A stretch of 30,054 nucleotides of DNA from a virus, in IMG/VR virus record IMGVR_UViG_3300047163_000243, positions 1 to 30,054 of that record; one strand, given 5' to 3'. This document shows, piece after piece, positions 1 through 28,128 of the stretch. The position numbers and the translations under genes are program-made. The notes beneath the pieces are model-generated. The model worked only from the letters and a program-made list of their open reading frames with translations, did no database searches and was not told the origin of the DNA. Position 1 is the stretch's first letter, and each line of letters starts with the position of its first letter.

Positions 1-3000
1 CATGACGTCCGCCGCGCCGGCTTGCGCGTGCCAGCCCGCCGAGCCGATGGGGTCCACGATGCGCTTGAAGTCCGCCGGCAGCTCCGCTTTCTCTTCCGCC
101 GTCACCGCCCGCCGCGCCACGCCGCGTTCCGCCATGTCTTGCAGAACGTGATGCGCCAACAGGAAGCGATCCATCTCGCGAGCCTTCATCAGGATCAGCC
201 GCACCGGGTTATCGCTGACAGGCTTCAGTCCCGCTTCCAGAGCTTCCTGGAACGTCGGGAAGTCGCGATGTTGGAGGAACGATTTGGACCCCTCGAAGCG
301 CCGGTTGCCGTCGAAGAACGTGTTGACGAACTTCCCGGCGTCCGCGGGCCGTTCGAAGATGTGCGGGAAGTAGTTCTTGTAGAACTGTTGCAGGTCGCCC
401 TCTCCGAGTCCCTGCACTTCGCGCCGCCGCTGGTCCATCATGTTGCGCAGCGCCCCGGCCACCACGTCCAGGTCCGGATTCTCCTGCTTCTGGCCCCGCT
501 CCATGCGGTCGATGAAGTCGTAGTTCTGCTCGGGAGTTCGGGCGTCGAAGAAGCGGTCGGCTTTGGCGAGCCGCATCTGGGCCTGGTCGGAGCGCCGCGC
601 GAACTGCGCCATGCGGTGCCGGAGTGCCAGCCCCATCATCTCGGCCTGGCGGCTGAGCATGGTGGGCGCGACCAGGCGAAACACGGCGTCCCTGGCTTCG
701 GAGACGTCGCCAGCTACCCGCTGGATGGTGGGGATTACGTCGTCTTGGGCGAACCTGCGGATTCCGAGGGTGAGGAGATCGGGGTCGATGGATCCGCGCT
801 CGGGATTGCGGGAAGTCTCGCCCGTTACTTGCCTGGTGCGCGAGGATGCGGAATGAACCTGACCCGTCTCGTGTCCTGGTTCACCTCCAGGTGGCCGCCG
901 GAGTGATTGCTGAATGTCCCCATCGGCGTCTCCACTTGGTGTGGGGCGGCCGGGTGAATTCTCCTCAACTCCTGCTGGAGGCCCACCTCCCCCTTCCGGT
1001 CCAGAGCGTCCAGGCAATTCACCAGGTTTTCCTGGGCGTTCCCGCCGGAGGGCTTCGAAGACTCTACGGGCCACTTCTCTCGACGCAACATGACCATACT
1101 CCTCTCTTAACGATCTCACGTATCGGGCGCCCAAGGAGCGAGCTTCCGCGAGGGTTAGTCCCAATTGCTCTCTACCTGAAGCGCGCATGAGGCGCACTCC
1201 CACCTCGGCTGCCGCATGCCCTGCCGAACGAAATGTGTGTCCGTAATTCTCGGAGAGATTTCTCAACGCGGTTAAGGCAAGCGCCCCCGTCTTGAATGTA
1301 TCGGCACGCGTTCCTAAATGATTCGTCAGGTTGCCGCCGGTTAGAGAACGCTGCGCGGCGTGATCCAGTTCCTCGGTCAGCGCGTCTGCCCGCTGCTGGT
1401 CGGGAATCGCGGCATGATCCTTCACAAAGATCAGCGATTTTCCGCCGTCGCGGGCCTCTCTTACGATACCGGCGAGTTGTCTCAGAGCCGCCGGCGGCTT
1501 CGAGAACTCCGCGGCGTCCACGGCAATGTTATTGGCGAGGGCGTCCATCTGGTCCGGGGAAATATGCAGTGCATCCACCGATAGAGCCGCCTCATCGGGG
1601 TCGTAGGCGCCGGTCATTCGCCCCAGGTATTCCATCCCACTCAGATTTGTCGTATGCGCGACCGCTCTTCCAGCATCTTCAACTGGCAGTGTAATCGCCT
1701 CGAAGCGCGCCTTGGACGCATGATGAAGGTCGGGAGCGTCAGGCCAATAGGGTTCATCGCGGTTGCCTTCGAGCCGCGGGGGGTCAATGCGCCGCTGACG
1801 CGCGTTCTCCATCCCTACAGCGCGTTTTGCGCCAAACGCCGAGCCGAACGCCTCCTGCCTGCTCGGCGGTGTGAAGAGGCTGGACTGCGATCCATCCCGG
1901 CTCAGCGCCTCGTCGTTCGCATACTGCCGGAACGCCGCCGCCACATTCGGACCTTCCTGCAACTTCTTCGCGATCGCCAGCGCCTCCGGCGAGTGCGGCT
2001 TCATCGCCTCCCCGCCGCCGATCCGCGTCTGACGTCCCAGATCGTCCAGATTCCTGATCCCGTGCGCCTTCGCCTCCGCCAGCGCCGCCACCGCCTGCCG
2101 CACCTGCGGCGTAATGCTCCAACTCGGCCTGCCCTCCACGCGCAACACATGCGGCGCAATCCGCTCGCGTTCCGCCATGTCTTGCAGAACGTGATGCGCC
2201 AACAGGAAGCGATCCATCTCGCGAGCCTTCATCAGGATCAGGCGTACCGGGTTATCGCTGACAGGCTTCAATCCCGCTTCCAGCGCTTCCTGGAACGTCG
2301 GGAAGTCGCGATGTTGGAGGAACGATTTGGACCCCTCGAAGCGCCGGTTGCCGCCGAAGAACGTGTTGACGAACTTCCCGGCGTCCGCGGGCCGCTCGAA
2401 GATGTGCGGGAAGTAGTTCTTGTAGAACTGTTGCAGGTCGCCCTCTCCGAGTCCCTGCACTTCGCGCCGCCGCTGGTCCATCATCTTGCGCAGCGCCCCG
2501 GCCACCACGTCCAGGTCCGGATTCTCCTGCTTCTGGCCCCGCTCCATGCGACCGATGAAGTCGTAGTTCTGCTCCGGAGTTCTGGCGTCGAAGAATTTGT
2601 CGGCTTTGGCGAGCCGCATCTGGGCTTGGTCGGAGCGCCGCGCGAACTGCGCCATGCGGTGCCGGAGAGCCAGACCCATCATTTCGGCCTGGCGGCTGAG
2701 CATGGTGGGGGCCACCAGACGAAATACGGCGTCCCTGGCTTCGGAGAGGTCGCCAGCTACCCGCTGGATGGTGGGGATTACGTCGTCTTGGGCGAACTTG
2801 CGGATTCCGAGGGTAAGGAGGTCGGGGTCGATGGATCCGCGCTCGGGGTTGCGGTCTACTTCGCCTGGCCATCCGGAGGCGTCTTCTTCCGCCAGGTCAC
2901 GAACGGGCGGTCCTTCCCTGGAGCCGAGAACGGCAGGCCCTTCTGTTGAGCGGCGTGCGCCTCTATATCCTTCACCAGGTTGTCGAGTCCCTGGGGCGTG

Positions 3001-6000
3001 TACTTCCTCACGTCCTCCAGAAACGCGTGGCCCCGCGGGTTCAGGTCGAGCGAGCGCAGGGCGCCCTTGTCCCGGAGGAGATCCTCTACCTTGGGAAGTT
3101 TGCGCAGGCGCATTAACGCCGCCGCTTCCTGTGCTAACTGGCTGAGACGTTCCATGGAACGGTTTCAGTATACGGGAAAATCCGCGATTCTGAAATACCT
3201 CCGAAGGATGATGCATGGCCAGCAGGCCACGCAGGTAATGCTGGCGGAGCCTCTCGGCTTCTGCGAGCGAAAGACCCATCGCATCCCAACCCGTCGGGCC
3301 TTCTTCGAGGTGAGCACCAATCTCAGCAGCCATCTCCTCCCGGTCGCCGCGGTCGTAGAACCTGCCCAGGTTGTCTGCCGCCTTAATCGCTTCGGGATGC
3401 TTCAACAGAGCGCGGGCGTCTATGTGCCCGTCGGTTGTGCCGTTTATTCCCAGCCGCCTCTGGGCTTCGTGGGCCCGCTCGTGCGCAAGCACTTCCGGAG
3501 ATTGGCCGATGTTAAGCTCTTCCCACCGCACCAGCGCGCGATTCAAGGGATCAAGCAGCGCATACAGATCGCTCTTGGTCCACGGCGTTCCCGGAATTCC
3601 TCCCTTTTGCACCGCGTCGTACACGTTCCTGCGGAAGTCTCGGACTTGCCCGGGGGACATGTTGAGACCCAGCAACTCGGAATCCGGAGGAGCGCCCTCA
3701 TAGAAGCGAAACACATCGTCGACCAGAGCGGCAGCACGGCCGTTACTCATCAACGTGCCGGCCATCCCGCGCTTGCCGGGTGCGTATTCAAACCGCACCG
3801 GCTCGGCTGGTTCGCGGACTATTGTGGGACGGCGCCTCCCTGCCAACGGCTTCCCATTCCCAAACGCTAAACCGAATGCTTCCGCCTTTGTCGGCGGCAT
3901 GAAGAAACTCGACTGTCGTCCATCGCGGCTCATCTCCTCCGCGTTGGCGTAGTCCCGGAACGCCCGCGCCGCCGCGTTCGGATTCTGCTGCATCGCCTTG
4001 GCGATGGCGATCGCTTCCGGCGAGTACGTCCGATTGCTTCCATTGCTTCCGGATTGCTTCGGAAGCAATGAAGATTGCTTGGCCAGATCGTCCAGGTTCT
4101 TAATCCCGTGCGCCTTCGCCTCCGCCAACGCCGCCACAGCCTGCCGCACCTGTGGCGTGAGGTTCCACCCCGGCCTGCCCTCCACCCGCAGCACATGCGG
4201 CGCAATCCGCTCCAGCTTCGCCCGCAGCTCCGGCGGCGCCTGCGCGAACTGCGCCGGACTCTCGAACAGCCGCCCCACCAACGCCTTGGCGATGCGATCC
4301 TTGGCAGCCGGGGTGAGGTGCTCGCGCTCGTCCACCATCCCGTTCGCTTCCTGGCGAGTCAGAACGCCGTCTTTGACCAGCAGATTCAGAACTTCGGCCC
4401 CGCCCTTACCCTGGATCGCTTGCGCCAGCGTGGAATCCTGACCGGCATCCTCCATCCTGCCCGCCAGATTTTCGATAGTGGCCTTGCTCATCCGTCTGCC
4501 GTCGGCGACCGCCTGCTCTTCCGGCTTGTACTCCGCGCCGGACTTCTTGTTGAGATCCGTCACGGCATTCTGCGCGGCCGGGCCCGGCGGCATCGGCTGT
4601 CTGAGTTCGCGGACCAGCACCGGTTTCCGCATCCCCCGCACCGCCGCCGGGTCGATCCCGAACTGGGCAGCCTTGGCGGCGATCTCTTCGCGGTACGCCG
4701 CCGCCCGCTCCGGGTGCATCTCGTAGGCCCGCTTGATCGCCATGGAACGGTTGTTGCCGCCCAGGGCGTTGCCCGCGGAGTCGACGACCGGCGCGCCGAG
4801 CTCCGCCGTGGGCGATTCGGTGGTTACCTCGCCGTTCTCGTTGAGGCGCTTCGCGTGGTCGATGACGCGCGCGGCGTTTTCCGGTTCGCTGTAGTTGCGG
4901 TCGTTCTGGTGCGGGTACGCAGGGTTCGGTTCGAACGAAAACGGGTTATGCGAAGCCTGCACATCGTCGGCCTCGCGGACGGCATAGCGCGCCGGGTACT
5001 TGGTCGCTTCCCCAGGGACGGCGATCTGCACGTCCTTCCCGTAGGACGCCTTTTGGCGAACCTCTTCCGCAGTCGGAGCCGCCGCGGACTTCCCTGCCAG
5101 CACCGAATCCGGCAGCTTCGTATCCGGATCCACCTGAACCGGAAAAGACTCCTGCCCCCGTCGCGCCGCTTCGGCGATCCGGTGGCGTCCGTCCGTCACA
5201 TCCACGCCGCGGTCCGTCACGGCAACGTGCGGATAGGCGTCCACCGAATCCAGACCGCGCAGCGCCGCCGCCCTCTCCGGACTCCAGGCCAGCGGCTCGC
5301 CCCGGCCTTGCTCGTATTGCCTCTGGAACTCCGCCGGATCGATGTTCACCAGGTGCGTCCCCAATTGATCGCGAAGCGCCGCGCTCTTCGGCGATTCTTC
5401 TACCCGGAGCGGGTTCGCCTTCGTCTGAGGCTCTGTAGGCGGGGTGGGCGCTTGTTGGTGGGATTCCTGGAATTCCTGGAAGGGAGCGGGAGTCGCTTCG
5501 GGTGCAGGCGTGGCCTCGGGAGGGGGAGTCGGTGCCGGCTCTTGGCGTGTCGCGTCCGGAGCTGCTGCCGGCTCCGGTACCGGAGTCGGTTGCGGTGGCG
5601 GCGGTTCCGGCGCTGCCGTGGGTGCGGGTTGAGCCGGTTCGTCGCCGGGAAGTATCCCACGCTGCGCGGTGCGCCGCCGAATCTCCGACACCAGATCGCT
5701 CATCCGGGTGGTGTCGCCCTGCCCATAGGCACGGTTGAATTCGGTGACGATGGCCGGGTCCGGGTATTTCTTCTGGTTGGAGTAATCGACGACTTCGGCG
5801 TTGGCGGGGATTGCCTTGCCGTACTTGCCGCCTGGGCGGAATTCTGCCGGTCCGCGCGCGAGTTGGTCCGCGCCCGTCGAAAGTGCGTCGTTGGCGTGGA
5901 GCCCCGCGAGCACCGTGAAGACACTGGCGAGCCCCGCGCTGCCTAGCTTTGCAAACGCCTCGTCCGTGTCGCCGCGCTTGAACGCAGCGTAAGCCTCTGG

Positions 6001-6576
6001 GAAGTCGTGGGCCGCTTGGAGGCCCGCCTCGGTCGCGAAGTAGGCAGACAGGCCGGATTGAGCGGCGTTGAGCGCGCCCTGTGCGACCATCGGGAGCTTA
6101 CCCGCCACTGCCGACACGCCTCCGGTGGCTACCGCAATCGCCGCATTGAGCGGAGTCGCCGTCTGGAGCAAACCCTTGATGACCCCGCGGTGGAGCGCGA
6201 ACGGCCCTACCAGGAAAGAGCCAAGCTCGCGGTCGATGTCTTCCACCGGCAGGGGATTCTCGGTGAGCGCCTGAGTGAGAGTGGAGGGTGGACTCTTCTG
6301 AACGGGTTGCACGGATTCCGGCGCTTGGTCGTAGTGCAGCGGCCTCACGATAGCTGGTCCCCGATTTGGTTCGTCCGTCAGGATCGGCACGGAGCCGTAG
6401 CGGACGGCGCCGCGATTATCCGGCTCCGGCGCGTCCGGACGCAGACCGGGCGGGAGCGGGGGCTTGGGCATCCCCGGCAGTTTCAGCGGGGGAGGCTCCC
6501 CCATCGATGTGGCAAATGCTTCGAAGTCGCCCGTTGGCTGAGACTTGACGAAATCCGCGAACGGGGTATCCGCCAT
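1..6576 (-). CDS. Giant polyvalent (ParB/zincin) phage protein, ejection-protein position, C-terminus outside window
   Basis: One frame is open from the ATG at 6576 to the window edge: 2,192 codons with no stop, checked triplet by triplet. The start directly follows the TAG of the gp20-like gene. Layout by residue: N-terminus with Gly/Ala-rich hydrophobic helices at about 150-240; Pro/Ala/Glu-rich linker at about 313-386; ParB-like segment with DGRHR at 462-466; DdrB-type ParB domain at about 535-720 with GGNNRSM at 606-612; zincin HERAH at 1032-1036 with a possible third ligand E1085; a helical module at 1242-1470 repeated at 1923-2151; and a degenerate EELDH at 1735-1739. Such multi-domain proteins (polyvalent class) are known to be injected with phage DNA to counter host defences. 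The position after gp7/gp20-like genes matches P22 gp16. Residues about 1141-1240 and 1829-1918 look poorly coding in this frame (see nested ORFs), so the locus may really be several genes. Confidence 0.8.
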   Translation of the reverse strand, partial: MADTPFADFVKSQPTGDFEAFATSMGEPPPLKLPGMPKPPLPPGLRPDAPEPDNRGAVRYGSVPILTDEPNRGPAIVRPLHYDQAPESVQPVQKSPPSTLTQALTENPLPVEDIDRELGSFLVGPFALHRGVIKGLLQTATPLNAAIAVATGGVSAVAGKLPMVAQGALNAAQSGLSAYFATEAGLQAAHDFPEAYAAFKRGDTDEAFAKLGSAGLASVFTVLAGLHANDALSTGADQLARGPAEFRPGGKYGKAIPANAEVVDYSNQKKYPDPAIVTEFNRAYGQGDTTRMSDLVSEIRRRTAQRGILPGDEPAQPAPTAAPEPPPPQPTPVPEPAAAPDATRQEPAPTPPPEATPAPEATPAPFQEFQESHQQAPTPPTEPQTKANPLRVEESPKSAALRDQLGTHLVNIDPAEFQRQYEQGRGEPLAWSPERAAALRGLDSVDAYPHVAVTDRGVDVTDGRHRIAEAARRGQESFPVQVDPDTKLPDSVLAGKSAAAPTAEEVRQKASYGKDVQIAVPGEATKYPARYAVREADDVQASHNPFSFEPNPAYPHQNDRNYSEPENAARVIDHAKRLNENGEVTTESPTAELGAPVVDSAGNALGGNNRSMAIKRAYEMHPERAAAYREEIAAKAAQFGIDPAAVRGMRKPVLVRELRQPMPPGPAAQNAVTDLNKKSGAEYKPEEQAVADGRRMSKATIENLAGRMEDAGQDSTLAQAIQGKGGAEVLNLLVKDGVLTRQEANGMVDEREHLTPAAKDRIAKALVGRLFESPAQFAQAPPELRAKLERIAPHVLRVEGRPGWNLTPQVRQAVAALAEAKAHGIKNLDDLAKQSSLLPKQSGSNGSNRTYSPEAIAIAKAMQQNPNAAARAFRDYANAEEMSRDGRQSSFFMPPTKAEAFGLAFGNGKPLAGRRRPTIVREPAEPVRFEYAPGKRGMAGTLMSNGRAAALVDDVFRFYEGAPPDSELLGLNMSPGQVRDFRRNVYDAVQKGGIPGTPWTKSDLYALLDPLNRALVRWEELNIGQSPEVLAHERAHEAQRRLGINGTTDGHIDARALLKHPEAIKAADNLGRFYDRGDREEMAAEIGAHLEEGPTGWDAMGLSLAEAERLRQHYLRGLLAMHHPSEVFQNRGFSRILKPFHGTSQPVSTGSGGVNAPAQTSQGRGSPPGQGRPALARPEPAGPRVSGGREEVHAPGTRQPGEGYRGARRSTEGPAVLGSREGPPVRDLAEEDASGWPGEVDRNPERGSIDPDLLTLGIRKFAQDDVIPTIQRVAGDLSEARDAVFRLVAPTMLSRQAEMMGLALRHRMAQFARRSDQAQMRLAKADKFFDARTPEQNYDFIGRMERGQKQENPDLDVVAGALRKMMDQRRREVQGLGEGDLQQFYKNYFPHIFERPADAGKFVNTFFGGNRRFEGSKSFLQHRDFPTFQEALEAGLKPVSDNPVRLILMKAREMDRFLLAHHVLQDMAERERIAPHVLRVEGRPSWSITPQVRQAVAALAEAKAHGIRNLDDLGRQTRIGGGEAMKPHSPEALAIAKKLQEGPNVAAAFRQYANDEALSRDGSQSSLFTPPSRQEAFGSAFGAKRAVGMENARQRRIDPPRLEGNRDEPYWPDAPDLHHASKARFEAITLPVEDAGRAVAHTTNLSGMEYLGRMTGAYDPDEAALSVDALHISPDQMDALANNIAVDAAEFSKPPAALRQLAGIVREARDGGKSLIFVKDHAAIPDQQRADALTEELDHAAQRSLTGGNLTNHLGTRADTFKTGALALTALRNLSENYGHTFRSAGHAAAEVGVRLMRASGREQLGLTLAEARSLGARYVRSLREEYGHVASREVARRVFEALRRERPGKPGELPGRSGPEGGGGPPAGVEENSPGRPTPSGDADGDIQQSLRRPPGGEPGHETGQVHSASSRTRQVTGETSRNPERGSIDPDLLTLGIRRFAQDDVIPTIQRVAGDVSEARDAVFRLVAPTMLSRQAEMMGLALRHRMAQFARRSDQAQMRLAKADRFFDARTPEQNYDFIDRMERGQKQENPDLDVVAGALRNMMDQRRREVQGLGEGDLQQFYKNYFPHIFERPADAGKFVNTFFDGNRRFEGSKSFLQHRDFPTFQEALEAGLKPVSDNPVRLILMKAREMDRFLLAHHVLQDMAERGVARRAVTAEEKAELPADFKRIVDPIGSAGWHAQAGAADVM
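124..810 (-). repeat. Direct repeat Z2 (second copy of 687-bp helical module)
   Basis: This matches 2167-2853 without gaps at a constant offset of 2,043 bp. My hand count gives about 27 mismatches in 687 positions. The encoded 229 residues begin NPERGSIDPD and end HHVLQDMAER, with only about six amino-acid differences, so most changes are synonymous. After this copy the protein continues with VTAEEKAELPADF, apparently the natural continuation of the domain. Copy Z1 instead runs into module X2. Confidence 0.93.
825..1091 (-). CDS. Nested small ORF S2 overlapping the giant ORF, unknown function
   Basis: The 88-residue frame lies in the +1 frame relative to the giant ORF. The start at 1091 is chosen because AGAGAGGAG stands 7 nt upstream; an ATG at 1097 is too close to that site. 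A TAA in the same frame lies just before the ribosome site. About 79% of third codon positions are G/C by hand count, against a mixed Gly/Pro/Arg-rich product in the giant frame over the same bases, so this frame looks like the constrained one. It ends with APGK and a TAA 15 bp before repeat Z2. The product is hydrophilic (residues start MLRREKWPVESSKP), with no domain I recognise. It could be a separate gene or an alternative C-terminus of the upstream module. Confidence 0.55.
   Translation of the reverse strand: MLRREKWPVESSKPSGGNAQENLVNCLDALDRKGEVGLQQELRRIHPAAPHQVETPMGTFSNHSGGHLEVNQDTRRVRFIPHPRAPGK
1831..2166 (-). repeat. Diverged repeat X2 in giant ORF
   Basis: It encodes a segment starting ERIAPHVLRVEGRP and ending near EAFGSAFG. 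It is clearly homologous to X1 (3859-4212), roughly two thirds identical at protein level by eye. X1 and X2 are about 2.03-2.05 kb apart, the same period as Z1/Z2, so X-Y-Z behaves as one tandemly duplicated unit. Confidence 0.88.
2167..2853 (-). repeat. Direct repeat Z1 (first copy of 687-bp helical module)
   Basis: This is the partner of 124-810. It starts directly after the stop of the nested ORF at 2856-3155 and ends at the junction with module X2. The junction, MAER followed by ERIAPH, is where the duplicated unit rejoined in frame. Confidence 0.93.
2856..3155 (-). CDS. Nested small ORF S1 overlapping the giant ORF, unknown function
   Basis: The 99-residue frame is in the same +1 frame relative to the giant ORF as S2. 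Hand count gives about 80% G/C at third positions, against about 43% for the giant frame over the same bases. The product looks like a normal helical protein: MERLSQLAQEAAALMRLRKL, then an LEDVRKYTPQGLDNLVKDI-type amphipathic stretch and a basic tail ending PPDGQAK. An in-frame TGA lies just upstream, so the ATG at 3155 is the first possible start, but I see no good ribosome site. The stop at 2856-2858 abuts repeat Z1. It shows no clear similarity to S2 despite the equivalent position. Function unknown. Confidence 0.5.
   Translation of the reverse strand: MERLSQLAQEAAALMRLRKLPKVEDLLRDKGALRSLDLNPRGHAFLEDVRKYTPQGLDNLVKDIEAHAAQQKGLPFSAPGKDRPFVTWRKKTPPDGQAK
3859..4212 (-). repeat. Diverged repeat X1 in giant ORF
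   Basis: This is the partner of X2 (1831-2166). It is six codons longer because of a short repetitive insertion at 4031-4080 encoding a Ser/Gly/Asn-rich stretch. It encodes ERIAPHVLRVEGRP near its start and EAFGLAFG at its end. Confidence 0.88.
4031..4080. repeat. Short ATTGCTTC repeat cluster with hairpin
   Basis: ATTGCTTCC occurs in tandem at 4033-4041 and 4042-4050. ATTGCTTC follows at 4053-4060, with an inverted copy immediately after (GAAGCAAT, 4062-4069) and another ATTGCTT at 4074-4080. The 8-bp arms form a near-loopless palindrome. It lies in the linker of module X1 and accounts for the length difference from X2. Confidence 0.75.
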
Positions 6577-7911: not shown

Positions 7912-9063
7912 TTAGTTGCCTCCCCATGGCATCGGAGCGTACTGGCTATAGCTGCCTTGGTAGGGAGCAGAAGGAGCGAGGCCGCTGTAGTTCGGCGGCG
8001 CCGTGTAAGCCCCGTTCACCAAGCTGGTGATGCCGCTGGAACTCGGTTGCGAGTATCCGCCGCCCCAGTTCGGGACGCCGCTGATCGCGCCGGTTGGCGA
8101 GAACCCGCCCCCGCCGCCGAACCCGCCGTAAAGGATCGAATTCACGCCGTTGCCGATCCCGCTCAACATCCCGTTCCAGGCGTTCGCGCTGCCGATGATC
8201 CCCTGAGCCTTGGCTTGTCCCGCGCCGATGGCGTCGGCGCCCTGTTGCTGCGCCCCCTGCATCCCGACCGTCCCGAGCCACTGGTTGCCCTGGTTGGTCT
8301 GCGACGCGGTGCTCATGGTGTCCGCGCCCACGACATCGCCCGCGTGGACGGTGTTGGCTGCCGCCTGCCCAGTCGCCGCCATGGTGTTCGCGCTCGTTCC
8401 GGCTCCGAAGTTCTGGCCCGCCTGCAGGAACTGTGCGTCGGCCTGCTGCCCCATGCCCGCCACGCCGCTCAACATGCCGTAGGTCTGCTGCTGCTGCTTC
8501 GTGTAGCGGTCGAACGCCGCGCCGTACTCGCTCGACGCCAGCCCTTGCGAATACCGCGCCAGGGACTTCGCCGCCCCGCCGCCCATCTGTCCTCCCGCCG
8601 CCGCCGCCGAGCGCTGCAACGCTTGCTCGCCTTGCTGCAAGCGGAACTGGTAGCCGGGGTCGTTGGCCTCCATCATCGAGGCGTTGAACGGCGTGTTGAG
8701 ACTCCCTCCAGGAGCCATGTCGGCGGAGAGCGTGCCCACCGCCGCCGCGCCGGCGTCGCGGTACGGTTGGGTGGTCGATCCCGCCGTCCCGTACACATCG
8801 GCCAGCGTCTTGTTGGCGTTGGTCATCCCCACGCCCAGGCTGTCGTTCGCCTGCTGCACGCCTCCGGTTACGGCGGAGGTGGCGTTGGCGAGTCCGGTCC
8901 CGAGCGCGGCAAGGCCGGTTGCTCCGTAGCCCTGCGCGGCCGTCGTCGCGTTTTTGATGAGATTGCTCGCGCTGTCGTAGGCGCCCGAGAGCGCCGCGCC
9001 TGCATTCTTCGAAGCGGACGCGCCTTGGATTCCTCCGATGATTGAGGTAACGATTGAAGCCAC
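7912..9063 (-). CDS. DNA transfer / ejection protein (gp7-like)
   Basis: 383 residues. The sequence is dominated by Ala, Gly, Gln and Ser. An N-terminal small-residue segment (SIIGGIQGASASKNAGAAL) is followed by helical repeats. A more conserved-looking core near residues 130-190 has a DPGYQFRLQQGEQALQRSAA motif, which I recognise from phage internal-virion proteins. The C-terminus is Gly/Ser/Tyr/Pro-rich and disordered. P22 gp7 and its relatives are carried in the head and injected, helping to build a DNA conduit across the periplasm. It lies between the GNAT-like gene and the gp20-like gene, as expected for an ejection cluster. Confidence 0.72.
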   Translation of the reverse strand: MASIVTSIIGGIQGASASKNAGAALSGAYDSASNLIKNATTAAQGYGATGLAALGTGLANATSAVTGGVQQANDSLGVGMTNANKTLADVYGTAGSTTQPYRDAGAAAVGTLSADMAPGGSLNTPFNASMMEANDPGYQFRLQQGEQALQRSAAAAGGQMGGGAAKSLARYSQGLASSEYGAAFDRYTKQQQQTYGMLSGVAGMGQQADAQFLQAGQNFGAGTSANTMAATGQAAANTVHAGDVVGADTMSTASQTNQGNQWLGTVGMQGAQQQGADAIGAGQAKAQGIIGSANAWNGMLSGIGNGVNSILYGGFGGGGGFSPTGAISGVPNWGGGYSQPSSSGITSLVNGAYTAPPNYSGLAPSAPYQGSYSQYAPMPWGGN

Positions 9064-9067
9064 TTGA

Positions 9068-9532
9068 TTACTCCTTGCGCGAGATCCCGAGGTGGATCAC
9101 ATCGCGTAACTTGCCGTTCTTGAGGAAGCTGCTTGGGTTGCGGCCCCACTCGGCAAACCCTGTCGATTTGGCGAAAGCGATCGCCAGCGGATTGCTGACC
9201 GCCACCGCGCCGACGATCCGCGCGCATCCGGTGTGGACGAAGGCCCACGCCACCGCGCCGCGCATGGCATCATGCGCCCGCTCGCCCCACGCCGTAGGCA
9301 GAAAGGCCACATGGACATCCAGGCAGACCGCGCCCTGCGGCACGAACATCACCAGGCCCAGCAGCTCCGCGCCGTCCCAGGCGAGGAGGTAGATGATCCG
9401 CTCGTCTTCGTTCGGCCGGAAGTCTGCCGGCGCCGGAGCTGCGTCGTCGGTAACGTGGCGGAAGATGGCCGGATGGGTGAGGATGCCGCGAATCAGGCCG
9501 TAGTTCCGCGTCGGCTCGAAGCGCATCGTCAC
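9068..9532 (-). CDS. GNAT-fold acetyltransferase-like phage protein
   Basis: 154 residues if started at the GTG (9532), whose GTGA overlaps the upstream stop; an ATG lies two codons later at 9526. The segment WDGAELLGLVMFVP is followed by RIVGAVAVSNPLAIAFAKST and GFAEWG, which matches the strand-helix pattern of GNAT motifs A and B (V..SN..A..FAK..GF). The usual acetyl-CoA loop Q/RxxGxG/A is not clear, so catalysis is uncertain. A GNAT-like fold next to ejection genes recalls T7 gp13, a virion-associated protein I believe has this fold. It may act in assembly or modify a host target. Confidence 0.65.
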   Translation of the reverse strand: MTMRFEPTRNYGLIRGILTHPAIFRHVTDDAAPAPADFRPNEDERIIYLLAWDGAELLGLVMFVPQGAVCLDVHVAFLPTAWGERAHDAMRGAVAWAFVHTGCARIVGAVAVSNPLAIAFAKSTGFAEWGRNPSSFLKNGKLRDVIHLGISRKE

Positions 9533-10089
9533 GCCAACTGGAAGATGCTCACGTAGGTAAATCCCACGATCGTCAGCAGCGCCCCGCCCGAATCCTGGTA
9601 AGCCTGCAGCGTGATGACATCGCCCGCCGCGAGTGCGACTAAAGCAGCCGGAGCCGGCTGATAGATCGCCGCGCTGCCGACTGGAGCGCTGCCCGCGACG
9701 ATCTGGAGCGAGGCCCCGTTCTTGTACCACTCCGCATAGCGGGTGGTTCCCGCCGCGCTGCCCGCGAATCCGATCGCTCCGGACAGGAAGTAGAGGCCGG
9801 TGGTCGGCACGGTGAACGCGCCGCTGCTCCGGCTGATCCCAATCGGCGTGATGACATCCACGCTGAGCGCAAGGGCCGTCCAGGTGGCGGTCGGAACGCT
9901 GGTCGCCACGCCCGCCGAGGCGTAGGCTCGCGGCTGGAGCGTCGAGGTCCAACTCCCGATGTTCGACATCTTGAACCCATTCACGTTCACGTCTCCGCCA
10001 TGGGTGCGGAGGTCGTTGCCGAAGCCCTGGAAATCCGCGTTCGTCGGGTGGTAGCTCGAAGAGTAGGAGGTCTGCGTGTTCCAGGCCAT
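9529..10089 (-). CDS. Tail fibre/appendage protein with C1q-like jelly-roll domain
   Basis: 186 residues. The start ATG overlaps the previous TAA (TAATG). The N-terminus is polar (NTQTSYSSSYHPTNADFQGF). The second half, from about residue 60, has the alternating beta pattern TGLYFLSGAIGF...TRYAEWYKNG...YVSIFQLA. This is typical of trimeric C1q/TNF-like knobs found at the tips of phage fibres. It is likely a homotrimeric head or adaptor of the tail fibre encoded just upstream. Confidence 0.65.
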   Translation of the reverse strand: MAWNTQTSYSSSYHPTNADFQGFGNDLRTHGGDVNVNGFKMSNIGSWTSTLQPRAYASAGVATSVPTATWTALALSVDVITPIGISRSSGAFTVPTTGLYFLSGAIGFAGSAAGTTRYAEWYKNGASLQIVAGSAPVGSAAIYQPAPAALVALAAGDVITLQAYQDSGGALLTIVGFTYVSIFQLA

Positions 10090-15346: not shown

Positions 15347-16065
15347 CAGGAAGTTCCTTTCAGGTAGTTGTAGAGCCCGCCGCCAGACCGCGAACCGCCC
15401 GAGTAAATGGCGGGAGACTGACTGTTCTTGCTCTGGATCTCTTCGAGCGAGGTCTTGGCGATCTCCTGCGCGTCGGGCGTGAGTTGCGTGCGCCAGAGCG
15501 CGGCGAGCCGCTTGGCGAGGTTGTAGATGACCGCTTCCTCGTAGCCGGGGGGAAACTGCACCGCATCGCCCGCCGTCACAAAGGCCGTGAGCGCCTGCCA
15601 GCAGAACATCTCGATGGTGTAAACGTCGTCTGGAATCGGGTAGAAGAACAGCGTCGAAATGGGCGCCGCGCCATCGTTGTAAAGCTCCAGCGGGATGGAG
15701 TAGACCTGTCGCACCGCCCTTGCCGCCCATTGCGCCGTCGTCAGGAGTACCAGGGGACGGCGCACGGAGGGACTCGTATTGAACAGGACGTTGGCGCGCT
15801 CGATGCGCTCAGGACGCGGCCCGCCCGCGAAGCTCCCCGCCGCGCTAGGGCCGATCTGGTAGCTCTGCGTGTTGCCCACTGTGTTGTATGAGTACGTGGT
15901 GAGGTTGGGAATCCTCAGTCTGTTGGCGTTCCAGACAAGGATCATGTTCTGGAGCGCCAACAGCGCATCGGCGGCCGCCGGAGTGGTGGAGGCGTAGCTG
16001 TGGCCCGCGCCGCGCAACACGCCCGCGATCCGCATCGCCTGATAGGTGATGTCGGAAACGATCAT
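15346..16065 (-). CDS. gp4-like tail accessory factor, first copy
   Basis: 239 residues. The start ATG overlaps the stop of the tailspike-like gene (ATGA). VSDITYQAMRIAGVLRGAG followed by AADALLALQNMILVWNANRL matches the same helical signature as the next gene. The middle contains STLFFYPIPDDVYTIEMFCW and then FPPGYEEAVIYNLAKRLA, both common in head-tail connector proteins of podoviruses. It probably attaches to the portal and extends the tail tube. Translational coupling to an exported-looking tailspike gene is odd, because gp4 works in the cytoplasm. Confidence 0.75.
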   Translation of the reverse strand: MIVSDITYQAMRIAGVLRGAGHSYASTTPAAADALLALQNMILVWNANRLRIPNLTTYSYNTVGNTQSYQIGPSAAGSFAGGPRPERIERANVLFNTSPSVRRPLVLLTTAQWAARAVRQVYSIPLELYNDGAAPISTLFFYPIPDDVYTIEMFCWQALTAFVTAGDAVQFPPGYEEAVIYNLAKRLAALWRTQLTPDAQEIAKTSLEEIQSKNSQSPAIYSGGSRSGGGLYNYLKGTS

Positions 16066-18005
16066 GGCACCGCCGCCGTAGTCGTGATTCGGTAAGCTGC
16101 CGGCGTCCCGCCGGGAGTGTAGCCGCCGATCTGCGCGCCCCAGATGTAAATGCCGCTGGAATTGTCGCCGGTGTACGTCGCGGTGCCGTCGGCGCTCGAC
16201 TGGCCGATCTCGAAGACGGAAAGCGAAGTGCCCGCGTAGATCGCGCAGGCCTTGTACCAGCCGGTTCCGGGCGCGGCGGCGATGGTCGCCGTGATTCCGC
16301 TGTCCACCGTGCCTACGGCTCCGGTACCCAAATTGACCCAGGCGCGTTTGACTCCCGAGTCGGTGTTGAGCTGCAGGTAGGCGATGGAGCGGGTGGCCTG
16401 CTTCACATAGGCGCACGCCGCCAGCGGTCCCGATTGCGCGATCGACTGATAGATGCCGTGCTGGTTGCTGGTGTTGTTCTCCTGCGTGAGAAACGCCGTG
16501 CTCGTGCCGTCGGGCGCGGTGTTGTTGGAGCTGGGCAGGGAGAGCGAGGCGACGCTCCACGCCGCGTTCGAGAAGAGCTGCGAGTACAACAGGTTGTTCC
16601 AGCCGCTATTCGTCGGCGCGGTGTCGCTGTTGATGTACCAGTTCGTGACCAGGCCCGGGCCCGCGAAAAGATTCGACCAGTAGGTCGGCGAGCTGGTCGT
16701 CACCCGCCCCGCGTAGAGCTTCTTGATCGTCCCGCTAATACTGACAGCCGGACCCGCTACGTAAGAAAACAGGGTATCGATGACTACCTTTTCCCACGTT
16801 CCCCCGATCAGAATCGGCGGGTAGCCGGTGTCGTAGTGGTCCACGTAGTCGCGGATCGCAATCTCCCGTCCGGTGGTCGGCGCGAGGTTCAGTTTGGCGT
16901 ACGTGAAGGAGCCGCGCACGGTCGAGATGAACACCGAGCCGATATCGGCGGCCTGGTTTGCTGCCGAGAGCGTGCTGTCGAGGCTGTTAGAGACGGTGAC
17001 CGCGTAACCGGCGGCCTGCACTCCGTTTCCGTTGATGTCGCGAATTACGACATCGCGGATGGGATAGCCGACCGCGCCCTCCAGGCGCACCAGCGCCGCT
17101 CCGGGAGCGCGTCCGGACACGTCCTCGATCACCATGCCGGCGATGCTGCCCGAGCGGCTGTCGTAATTCGTCCAGCCCCATGCGGTGAGAGCCACCATGT
17201 CATCTCCGGTGCTGCCGCGCACGGTGCGGATTACCCCATTCCGCGCGGGCCCGTCCACGTGTACGCCGTCCTGACCGCCCGACGACGAAGTCGCCACAAT
17301 GCGAGTCACCGCAAAATCGCTGGCGTCTGCCACCAGGATGAAGTACTTCCCGGTCGTCCAACTCGCCGTGAGGTTGTCGAGGACGAGGTTATTGACGCCC
17401 TGGAACCGCAGCAGGTACGTGCCCATGTAAGTCCCCGCGCTCCCCGCCCGCCCGAACGCTCCCCCGGTCACTTTGATGTTTGCGTCGCGTGCATAGATCG
17501 CCGCCGTGACTCCGGTGCCCGACAGGGGAACGACGTCGGCGAGCTGCGCCGTGGTCGCGTTGGTCACGCTGAGAATCTGGGTTTGCAACTGCACCGAGCC
17601 GGTGTTGACCGCGTTCAGCCAGATGGATTGCCCCACGTCCGCGCCGGTGAACGCGGCGGTGGCAGACGTCATGATCTGCGAACCCGCCGTCGTCACGGCG
17701 TCGGTGAAGGTGCGCGTGGCCGACGCCGTGGCGGCGTAGTTGATGAGCAGGTTGTCCCCGCCGTTGGGGAATGTCAGAGTCGCTTGCCCAAGCTCCAGCC
17801 AGGTATTCGAGTAGATCGTGAGATGGTTCGAGATGACGCACGTACCCGAGAGGCGCACGAGTCCCGCACTGGTCAGCCGCGCCTGGATCGCGGAGGTGTC
17901 GTCCACTCCGCTGCATGGCAGGGTTCCGCCTGCGGGCCCGACAACAACGGTCTGCGCCGCGAGCTGCGCCGCGAACCAGACGGCGAGGGCAAGCGCGCGC
18001 CTCAC
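16062..18005 (-). CDS. Beta-helix tailspike / polysaccharide-degrading protein with signal peptide
   Basis: 647 residues. The GTG start at 18005 overlaps the previous TGA (GTGA) and gives RRALALAVWFAAQLAAQ, a Sec signal peptide. Longer upstream extensions overlap coding sequence in another frame and are rejected. Residues about 25-430 show the GVDDTSAIQARL entry motif and repeated short strands (ANIKVTGGAF, NLVLDNLTAS, DGVHVDGPARNGVIRTVRGS) of a pectate-lyase-like right-handed beta-helix. Residues about 470-640 resemble the carbohydrate-binding C-domain of tailspikes (WNNLLYSQLFSNAAW, AYVKQATRSIAYLQLN). It is likely to bind or cleave host polysaccharide. A signal peptide is unexpected for a virion spike assembled in the cytoplasm. 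Confidence 0.75.
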   Translation of the reverse strand: MRRALALAVWFAAQLAAQTVVVGPAGGTLPCSGVDDTSAIQARLTSAGLVRLSGTCVISNHLTIYSNTWLELGQATLTFPNGGDNLLINYAATASATRTFTDAVTTAGSQIMTSATAAFTGADVGQSIWLNAVNTGSVQLQTQILSVTNATTAQLADVVPLSGTGVTAAIYARDANIKVTGGAFGRAGSAGTYMGTYLLRFQGVNNLVLDNLTASWTTGKYFILVADASDFAVTRIVATSSSGGQDGVHVDGPARNGVIRTVRGSTGDDMVALTAWGWTNYDSRSGSIAGMVIEDVSGRAPGAALVRLEGAVGYPIRDVVIRDINGNGVQAAGYAVTVSNSLDSTLSAANQAADIGSVFISTVRGSFTYAKLNLAPTTGREIAIRDYVDHYDTGYPPILIGGTWEKVVIDTLFSYVAGPAVSISGTIKKLYAGRVTTSSPTYWSNLFAGPGLVTNWYINSDTAPTNSGWNNLLYSQLFSNAAWSVASLSLPSSNNTAPDGTSTAFLTQENNTSNQHGIYQSIAQSGPLAACAYVKQATRSIAYLQLNTDSGVKRAWVNLGTGAVGTVDSGITATIAAAPGTGWYKACAIYAGTSLSVFEIGQSSADGTATYTGDNSSGIYIWGAQIGGYTPGGTPAAYRITTTAAVP

Positions 18006-18373
18006 TGGACACCCACGTACTTGATCGCCACCGTGGGCGAGCTGCCCCCCGTGAGCGCCGTGAGGTTCGCGCGGATGCCGGTCACCGGGCGATCCGCGAC
18101 GTGAAAGGTCACCGATGAGGTGCAAGTCTGCGATCCGCTGAGGTTCGCCCAGTCCGGTGAGTTACTCGTCACATCGTCAAGCGTTCCCTCAAGCTGGATC
18201 GCACAAGTCGTGGGCCCGCCGGCCGTGATGACCTGGACGGTGTGTTTGTGCGCCACTGGCCCGATGTTGACCCCAAACGTCGTCCCGACCGCCGCGAGCG
18301 TTCCGAGGTTGTAGGTCGAGCTGCGCTGCGCGAACAGGGCCAACGCGCAGAGGCCGAGGAGGAGAGCTTTCAT
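18002..18373 (-). CDS. Small exported protein in virion block, unknown
   Basis: 123 residues. The start ATG overlaps the stop of the 79-aa gene (ATGA). The N-terminus KALLLGLCALALFAQ is a short Sec signal peptide. The mature part (STYNLGTLAAVGTTFGVNIG, then TCAIQLEGTLDD and VTFHVADRPVTGIRANLTAL) is beta-rich, with two Cys that could pair outside the cytoplasm. It is coupled on both sides, so it should be co-translated with the tailspike-like protein, perhaps as its partner. No family recognised. Confidence 0.65.
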   Translation of the reverse strand: MKALLLGLCALALFAQRSSTYNLGTLAAVGTTFGVNIGPVAHKHTVQVITAGGPTTCAIQLEGTLDDVTSNSPDWANLSGSQTCTSSVTFHVADRPVTGIRANLTALTGGSSPTVAIKYVGVQ

Positions 18374-27232: not shown

Positions 27233-27739
27233 TCACGCCGCCGAGGGAAAATTCCGCAACTTGGATTTCGCGCGGTTCTTGCGCAGCCGGAGTTGGGCTT
27301 CGGTCAGCATCAGCGCTTCGCAGATTTCGTGGTTGGTCTGCTCGTCGAGGTAGAAGCGCCACAAGATCTCGCGGTTCAGCGGCTGCGGGACCTCATCGAC
27401 GACAGCGCGGAGCCGCCAGCGGCGTTCCTTCTTTGCCAGCTCCTCCTCGGGAGTTAAACGGCGGTCTGCCACGTCGGGCATTTGACCGTTGTAGCGTAGG
27501 CGCCGCGCCTTCTGGATCTCGCCAATCGTCTGACAGACGCGCTTGCGCACGATCCCGATGGCGTAGCCTTCCGGGTCGCGAATCTCCGCGCCATGACGCA
27601 CCGCTTCGACGGCAGCGAGGAAGCACTCAGCCAGAACGTCGTCGGCCTGGTCGCTGCCGATCTGCTGGCAGATCCATCCGCGTACTTTCAGTTGCGCGCG
27701 GTAGATCGCGCCGATTAGCAGGTCTTCGGACTCGGTCAT
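27233..27739 (-). CDS. Sigma-70-family-like phage protein, likely late-gene regulator
   Basis: 168 residues from ATG 27739, which overlaps the previous stop (ATGA). A longer frame upstream is out-of-frame shadow. Residues 28-70 (SDQADDVLAECFLAAVEAVR ... DPEGYAIGIVRKRV) match the pattern of sigma region 2 (DxxDDVLxExFLxAxxxxxx...Pxxxxxxxxx). Residues 118-160 (PQPLNREILWRFYLDEQTNH ... LTEAQLRLRKNRAKSKL) match a region-4-type helix-turn-helix. The full size is ECF-like. Such proteins upstream of terminase often switch on late genes. Confidence 0.7.
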   Translation of the reverse strand: MTESEDLLIGAIYRAQLKVRGWICQQIGSDQADDVLAECFLAAVEAVRHGAEIRDPEGYAIGIVRKRVCQTIGEIQKARRLRYNGQMPDVADRRLTPEEELAKKERRWRLRAVVDEVPQPLNREILWRFYLDEQTNHEICEALMLTEAQLRLRKNRAKSKLRNFPSAA

Positions 27740-28128
27740 TGCAGCGGAACTACCTTGAGCGCGCGATGGCCGGTGGGCGCGGTCTTCGTGAGCGCCTGGG
27801 CGTCTTCGGCGGAGACGTTGGCGTCCAGGTCGGCCAGGGTGATCTTCGCGAGGCGGAGGAAGCGCAGCTTGCCCAGCAGTGCGAACAGCTTCCCCATGGA
27901 AGCGATTTTTCGTTCGGTCTTGCAGGGGGAAACTTGCAGGGTGTATCGCTTGCCGGTCTCCTGGAACGTGGCGAGCGGAGAAGCGCCGGCGTACCAACCT
28001 TGAATGATGGCGGCAACCTGTTTGTGACGCGCTACGGCGGGCGCGTGGCTTGCGATCTGGCGGCACAGCTCGCCGTACTCGTCAATAATAATGCGGCGGT
28101 CGACGGTGGCTGTCTTAACAGCGGACAC
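27736..28128 (-). CDS. Hypothetical first gene of the leftward operon
   Basis: 130 residues from GTG 28128 with AGGGGGAG 4 nt upstream. It faces the divergent regulator gene across 143 bp. The product has a helical N-terminal half (IIIDEYGELCRQIASHAPAV) and a short strand-rich middle (TGKRYTLQVSPCKTERKI) followed by helices. It overlaps the sigma-like gene by 4 bases, so the two are co-translated. No family recognised. Confidence 0.62.
   Translation of the reverse strand: MSAVKTATVDRRIIIDEYGELCRQIASHAPAVARHKQVAAIIQGWYAGASPLATFQETGKRYTLQVSPCKTERKIASMGKLFALLGKLRFLRLAKITLADLDANVSAEDAQALTKTAPTGHRALKVVPLQ

Follow-up and report, generated by a model that had tools for sequence, protein, structure and literature searches.

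A giant polyvalent-type reading frame in the third ejection slot of an uncultivated P22-like phage, with candidate overlapping genes in its linkers

Introduction

Polyvalent proteins are among the largest proteins of phages, and their presumed task is to disarm the host when the phage enters. Genes embedded within such giants may bear on how the cell that makes them tolerates and packages them. Polyvalent proteins that combine a DdrB-ParB domain with a metallopeptidase and are encoded near virion genes have already been described (PMC5512222), and gp16-like ejection proteins are reported to differ greatly in both length and domain make-up (PMC8954989). In the Bcep22-like phage JC1, proteins of 196, 510 and 4,515 aa are encoded in the same order as the three proteins discussed here, and gp68 and gp69 were found in virions (PMC9144972).

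Here we analyzed a 30,054-base IMG/VR virus fragment of an uncultivated phage (record IMGVR_UViG_3300047163_000243), referred to below as the window, meaning the whole stretch of DNA analyzed. Its features are listed in Table 1. Our preferred reading, to which we assign a probability of about 0.72, is that the window encodes a virion-delivered polyvalent protein in the gp16 slot, with dual-coding linkers that hold separately started +1-frame proteins and with a doubled cassette that is probably chimeric.

Table 1. Positions of the features of the giant frame and its upstream neighbors in the window
Feature	Position	Strand	Description
gp7-like ejection protein, 383 aa	7912..9063	-	phrog_598 'DNA ejection', E 6.6e-14
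Second ejection slot, 444 aa	6577..7911	-	gp20-like by position
Giant polyvalent-type ORF, third ejection slot	1..6576	-	2,192 codons, ATG at 6576
ParB-like stretch, aa 388-500	5077..5415	-	DGRHR motif at aa 462; marginal PHROG matches, E 0.01-0.2
DdrB-like ParB domain, aa 524-658	4603..5007	-	PF18763, E 3.7e-20
Tandem unit 1, aa 789-1470	2167..4212	-	end of DdrB extension, zincin-like A, embedded gene 1, helical C-domain
Zincin-like domain A	3208..3795	-	HERAH at aa 1032; motif; distant homolog of domain B
Embedded +1 ORF 1, 99 aa	2856..3155	-	linker after zincin-like A
Tandem unit 2, aa 1471-2151	124..2166	-	same order as unit 1; zincin-like B, embedded gene 2
Zincin-like domain B	1045..1761	-	EELDH at aa 1735; EExxH family
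Shine-Dalgarno-like GAGGAG	1099..1104	-	7 nt upstream of ATG 1091
Embedded +1 gene 2	825..1097	-	90 aa from ATG 1097; 88 aa from ATG 1091; after zincin-like B
Helical C-domain, copy 2	124..813	-	YFPHIF motif; 41-47% identity to G046 and G580

Results

The giant frame ends a P22-like virion module

The genes on the same strand as the giant form a P22-like virion module comprising terminase, portal, scaffold, major head protein, Hc3, tail proteins and a gp7-like gene. Within this module, PHROG matches were obtained for the portal (phrog_156), the P22-type major head protein (phrog_283) and the head closure protein Hc3 (phrog_578). The window has the order of the P22-type trio: a gp7 homolog and, behind it, the genes of the second and third ejection slots close the virion operon. 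The sequence-only reading had placed the giant after gp7- and gp20-like genes. The gp7-like assignment is supported by its profile match, and homologs of this protein occur in 17 of 23 clade records. The 444-aa protein, on the other hand, is a putative gp20 only by position and weak N-terminal similarity: it matches the second-slot gene of relative G031 (36% over 85 aa, E 1e-5) and, weakly, G001, and profile searches with it gave no match.

Relatives were recovered by portal alignment and then by zincin-B alignment; pattern-based searches for the whole ORF, the C-domain or the 444-aa gene in IMG/VR, and for the whole ORF in GTDB genomes, found none. We found that the order of a gp7-like protein, a protein of ~500-700 aa and a giant recurs in uncultivated relatives, with third-slot open frames of 2,088 (G046), 2,574 (G035), 5,168 (G033) and 6,544 codons (G036) and the same order in G039. 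Third proteins of 1,200-1,400 codons are present in G023:C933, G028, G029 and G051. In G001 and L042, close relatives that lack a giant, the slot is filled by proteins of ordinary size (493 and 637 aa), and third-slot proteins span 493-6,544 aa across relatives. The giant showed no similarity to the third-slot proteins of G001 and L042 and no match to PHROG ejection profiles. The proposal that a giant polyvalent protein occupies the gp16 slot is therefore upheld by its DdrB-ParB domain and by the repeated slot order, but not by homology to gp16. The locus does not represent a new kind of delivery system, given the 4,515-aa virion protein of JC1 (PMC9144972), a cultured precedent supported by mass spectrometry, and the polyvalent proteins already described near virion genes (PMC5512222). 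The first reading was largely right, and the giant is a member of an already known kind of arrangement.

Other genes of the window also gave profile matches. Profile NF048003, which describes the 'GTA spike fiber' head-spike fiber domain, was matched at E 5e-21 by the C-terminus of a tail protein (16062-18125, minus strand), a small virion protein (9529-10089, minus strand) matches phrog_13989, a virion structural protein, and has a weak C1q/BclA-like C-terminal match, and an ECF-type sigma-70 factor (27233-28066, minus strand; TIGR02937, E 1.3e-13) lies near the terminase genes. The ejection-slot giant of G035 (L126) contains a histidine phosphatase domain (PF00300, E 5.3e-21).

Domain architecture of the giant

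The sequence-only reading had recognized ParB-like, DdrB-type ParB and zincin motifs in the giant. Searches against Pfam and PHROG confirmed the DdrB-ParB domain, which scored 72.7 bits against a curated Pfam cut-off of 27.6, and gave marginal matches to the ParB-like stretch, but zincin-like domains A and B did not match any zincin profile, even with cut-offs as loose as E 10 for Pfam and E 5 for PHROG. The giant thus joins several disparate domains in one polypeptide (DdrB-ParB strongly, ParB-like marginally, zincin-like by motif only) and is encoded beside virion genes, as expected of polyvalent proteins (Iyer et al. 2017).

In an alignment of nine family members of domain B, EExxH..Q and AExGVRLM are invariant. 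At the place of the putative zinc motif, copy A has HERAH, and all nine members of family B, copy B included, have EExxH; on account of this invariance we rejected the reading of EExxH in copy B as a decayed HExxH. The AF2 model of domain B is confident (pLDDT 91.8, pTM 0.88), and Foldseek found no match to it in PDB and BFVD at E <= 0.001, the top viral match being a putative M34 endopeptidase at E 0.3. The zincin reading of the motifs found no support in the profile searches with both domains or in the fold search with domain B.

True HExxH motifs (HEIGHH, HEIGHQ) occur further downstream in G580 and G046, past the point that corresponds to the end of the window contig. The giant would accordingly run from a hydrophobic N-terminus through ParB-like, DdrB-ParB and zincin-like EExxH domains to a helical C-domain and, past the contig end, would continue as in the relatives with an HExxH segment and a long C-terminus.

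In genome screens, the zincin-B domain was present in 1 of 396 Acidobacteriota genomes and in 9 of 257 genomes from the order of G023. At positions 8343-9330 of G023:C801 (L120), a Bryobacterales MAG contig, a stand-alone EExxH gene and an overlapping partner lie amid bacterial chromosomal genes, and this pair possibly represents domestication or a prophage remnant.

A tandem re-entry inflates the open frame

Reading the minus strand from 6576 to 1 encounters no stop, as had been claimed; the frame begins at an ATG, and its 3' end is open, running off the contig at position 1 with the C-terminus missing. Relative G580 has a colinear open frame of 2,279 codons; this relative, like G514, comes from a bacterial assembly and may be a prophage remnant. 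The description of the ORF as uninterrupted holds for stop codons but conceals an in-frame tandem re-entry and two stretches that lose the codon signal. A codon-usage scan and the G580 alignment ruled out that the frame is one simple gene lacking internal structure.

Self-comparison of the giant ORF revealed the re-entry, with units of 682 codons, or ~2,046 nt. When aligned with the unduplicated G580, residues 511-1466 of the giant correspond to 543-1491 and residues 1468-2178 to 816-1520, which places the re-entry point of unit 2 at G580 residue 816. Nucleotide identity between the two units is 96% in the C-domain (693 nt) and 90%, falling to 75%, in the DdrB extension; the middles of the units are only distantly related. 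The length of the giant ORF is inflated by this re-entry.

The junction falls inside both domains that it joins, so that the C-domain and the DdrB extension are each truncated, and it brings together divergent alleles. We therefore take the doubled cassette for a probable chimera, in which two alleles were joined by assembly or by very recent recombination, rather than for a stable architecture. Alternatively, the duplication could be a true feature of the phage, giving a larger protein with two different zincin-like/partner cassettes. The reading frame is kept across the junction, and the junction is nearly free of overlap, which is unlike the product of a k-mer assembler by itself. However, no self-duplication was found in eight other giants, the units differ as two alleles would (96%, 90%, 75%, then unrelated), and the end of the repeat lies close to the contig end. 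We therefore consider a true duplication unlikely, and favor the chimera.

Candidate overlapping +1-frame genes in the linkers

The codon-usage scan showed that the giant-frame signal is lost at ORF nt ~3422-3721 and ~5480-5752, where +1 is the better coding frame. Both embedded +1 genes sit in the linker after a zincin-like domain. Embedded ORF 1 scored 0.66 in the +1 frame versus -0.33 in the giant frame. Its product would be a natural-looking helical protein, for which no homolog was found, and its start codon, like that of L140, lacks a good Shine-Dalgarno site. Embedded gene 2, which likewise reads as a natural-looking helical protein, scored 0.43 versus -0.19, and AF2 predicts a helical hairpin at aa 21-47 of its product (pLDDT ~89-97 over aa 21-50).

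A conserved +1 protein with the pattern ENLVxCLDALDxxGExGLxxELxRIHP is shared by the window, G047, G049, G580 and G514. In all pairwise comparisons among five aligned members, conservation was higher for the +1 protein than for the giant frame. The differences fell on +1 codon positions 1, 2 and 3 in 84, 57 and 134 cases (permutation P 0.00015). The family of gene 2 therefore shows purifying selection in the +1 frame, and most homologs have their own start and ribosome-binding site; most embedded starts are ATG or GTG behind AAGGAG- or GAGGAG-like sites, and the place of the start is conserved.

In window unit 2, L134-L138 and L140, the giant frame stays open through the linker alongside a +1 ORF of 60-100 aa, a combination repeated in G580 and G514, which were found later. 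The +1 frame outscored the giant frame in 9 of 9 loci. Given the +1 protein, the probability of an open giant frame is 0.02-0.26 per locus, yet it is open in all eight fused loci; for eight loci, window unit 1 among them, the joint probability is ~4e-8 if they are independent. Therefore, the linker is very probably translated in the giant frame too. The C-domains of G046, G580 and G035 lie in this same frame beyond the linker. These computations support dual coding of the linker, from which we infer that the small proteins are expressed.

We considered whether the +1 segments could instead be parts of the giant protein, with one shift into the +1 frame and a second one back, whether programmed or due to sequence error. 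The codon signal does pass from the giant frame to +1 and back in the linkers, and at some loci the +1 frame has no stop in the 15-20 codons that precede the ATG. Such compensating frameshifts are nevertheless improbable, as every +1 ORF has its own stop and its own start, usually with a Shine-Dalgarno site, and none of the fused loci has a stop in the giant frame, an outcome that would be unlikely if this frame were untranslated there. Moreover, independent records of cultured phages show the same pattern. Two relatives also separate the genes: the bacterial contig G023:C801 encodes the zincin-like protein and its partner in distinct genes that overlap, and in G471 a stop directly behind the zincin-like domain ends the giant frame but not the +1 frame.

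The stand-alone zincin-like/partner pair of G023:C801 would also fit a different reading, in which the giant ORF is illusory and consists of adjacent DdrB, zincin-like, small and C-domain genes with chance-open sequence between them in GC-rich DNA. In keeping with this, the third-slot protein ends just past the DdrB domain in the close relatives G023:C933, G029 and G028. Against it, the window has no start codon between the embedded stop and the C-domain, all eight loci are open, and G580 joins the DdrB, zincin-like and C-domains in one 2,279-codon frame at 44-46% identity. We regard this as very unlikely, the least probable of the readings considered, and retain a single giant protein with dual-coding linkers.

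Because the zincin-like domain and the embedded gene both differ between the alleles while their flanks stay 90-96% identical, the two may form one cassette; this covariation argument comes mainly from one contig, which may itself be chimeric.

Embedded ORFs in other giants and in cultured phages

A blind scan was made of 17 giants, most of which had been gathered by portal, DdrB or zincin-B similarity and none for an embedded ORF. It returned 14 embedded ORFs in 12 of the 17, all in frame +1. Gly/Pro-rich linkers can mimic a +1 codon signal, but synonymous shuffles (60 per gene for each of the 17 giants) yielded no embedded ORFs, a null that speaks against linker composition as the sole source of the signal. 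Among 252 other long reading frames (167,862 codons), matches lay only at or near ORF ends, where they are neighboring-gene overlaps or false antisense frames, with three internal exceptions that were all giants: Aeromonas phage phiARM81mr again, G044 and G583. Non-giant control ORFs gave no internal embedded +1 matches.

Several of the embedded ORFs are in cultured phages. phiARM81mr has an unannotated one of 64 aa in frame +1, at 50936-51130 of KT898134, and BcepIL02, BcepMigl, JC1, CSP3 and DC1 have embedded ORFs of 107-112 aa with AAGGAGG or AAGGAG before the ATG. In these five Bcep22-like phages, changes that are synonymous in +1 and nonsynonymous in the giant numbered 28 against 15.9 expected; the embedded frame of this family shows purifying selection, and its start and ribosome-binding site are clear. 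The embedded protein of Erwinia phage PEp14 matches positions 2084-2173 of phrog_938 (E 1.8e-19). In the annotated records of embedded-ORF giants that we examined, no gene is listed at these sites, and the published descriptions of these cultured phages that we consulted (including PMC9144972) mention embedded genes for spanins only, or none. Conserved overlapping genes inside polyvalent giants appear to be unreported in the literature searched, outside which most subscription journals lie.

These results bear on the view that the +1 ORFs are unexpressed by-products of Gly/Pro/Arg-rich linker composition. They do lie in low-complexity linkers, and proline-rich stretches also lower the giant-frame score. 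The absence of embedded ORFs from all 60 x 17 shuffles, the stronger conservation of the +1 protein and the profile match of the PEp14 protein make such an origin improbable, and expressed +1 genes remain our preferred explanation.

Other embedded ORFs were noted as well. The giants of G033 (L124) and G036 (L123) hold unrelated embedded +1 genes of 151 and 115 aa after a domain ending in YGTxxxxxxIVIDKxG; their products share the pattern PKLxPxxVLxAxxR and seem to be related. The strongest embedded signal, an 85-aa ORF scoring 1.13 in +1 versus -0.51, is at codon ~1039 of the G020 giant (L037). A second, shorter +1 ORF of 48-54 codons and odd-looking composition lies behind CAGGAGG in BcepIL02 (giant L160, codon ~964), BcepMigl, DC1 and CSP3.

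Discussion

By analogy with JC1 and P1, the giant would most likely be packaged and ejected with the DNA. Translation of its frame would continue without a break through the Gly/Pro-rich linker that follows the zincin-like domain, and the same linker would encode in +1 a separate protein of 60-125 aa, started at an ATG or GTG of its own that in most cases has a Shine-Dalgarno site in front of it. We favor the view that this small protein may serve the adjacent domain as its cognate partner in the producing cell, be it as inhibitor, chaperone or assembly factor; alternatively, it could act as a chaperone or in packaging, or be an effector in its own right. A broader proposition, that virion-delivered polyvalent giants commonly hold expressed +1 linker genes, each moving as a cassette with a neighboring effector-like domain and encoding its cognate partner, such as an inhibitor left in the producing cell, is tentative, and we would give it somewhat less than an even chance. 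If embedded proteins accompany single domains, they would be candidates for inhibitors or for factors in packaging. In that case, gene callers that do not allow nested genes would have missed them even in cultured phages. BcepIL02 gp70 and phiARM81mr offer directly testable loci.

Comparison with known systems places the locus as follows. With P22 gp16 (609 aa) the giant shares its place after gp7 and second-slot genes and a hydrophobic N-terminal region, but it is several times larger and has no detectable sequence similarity. With P1 DdrB, a DdrB-ParB protein with a C-terminal metallopeptidase (PMC5512222), it shares the DdrB-ParB domain, a late-gene context and, in relatives, a C-terminal HExxH. 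P1 is, however, a myophage whose DdrB is processed before packaging (PMC5512222), whereas the window giant lies in a podovirus ejection slot and has extra domains and embedded genes. Its zincin-like domains resemble the zincin-like MPTases of polyvalent proteins (PMC5512222) in a motif-like core (EExxH or HERAH), a downstream AE[IV]G and a similar architectural place, and differ in that the first histidine is glutamate in 9 of 9 family-B members and the AF2 model has no Foldseek match. Like Rz/Rz1 spanins and other embedded phage genes (PMC6139136), the embedded genes are small, out of frame and have their own start; unlike Rz/Rz1, they lie in the linker of a giant virion protein, with no link to lysis seen.

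A further parallel is provided by the DarB-like giants of Bcep22-like phages (Lessievirus), such as JC1 gp69 (4,515 aa) and BcepIL02 gp70, which also end the virion module. These likewise follow two virion-associated genes and likewise contain embedded +1 ORFs, and for JC1 the giant itself was found in virions (PMC9144972). The DarB-like giants carry transglycosylase, helicase and methylase domains (DarB), whereas the window giant carries DdrB-ParB and zincin-like domains, and the embedded protein families of the two differ.
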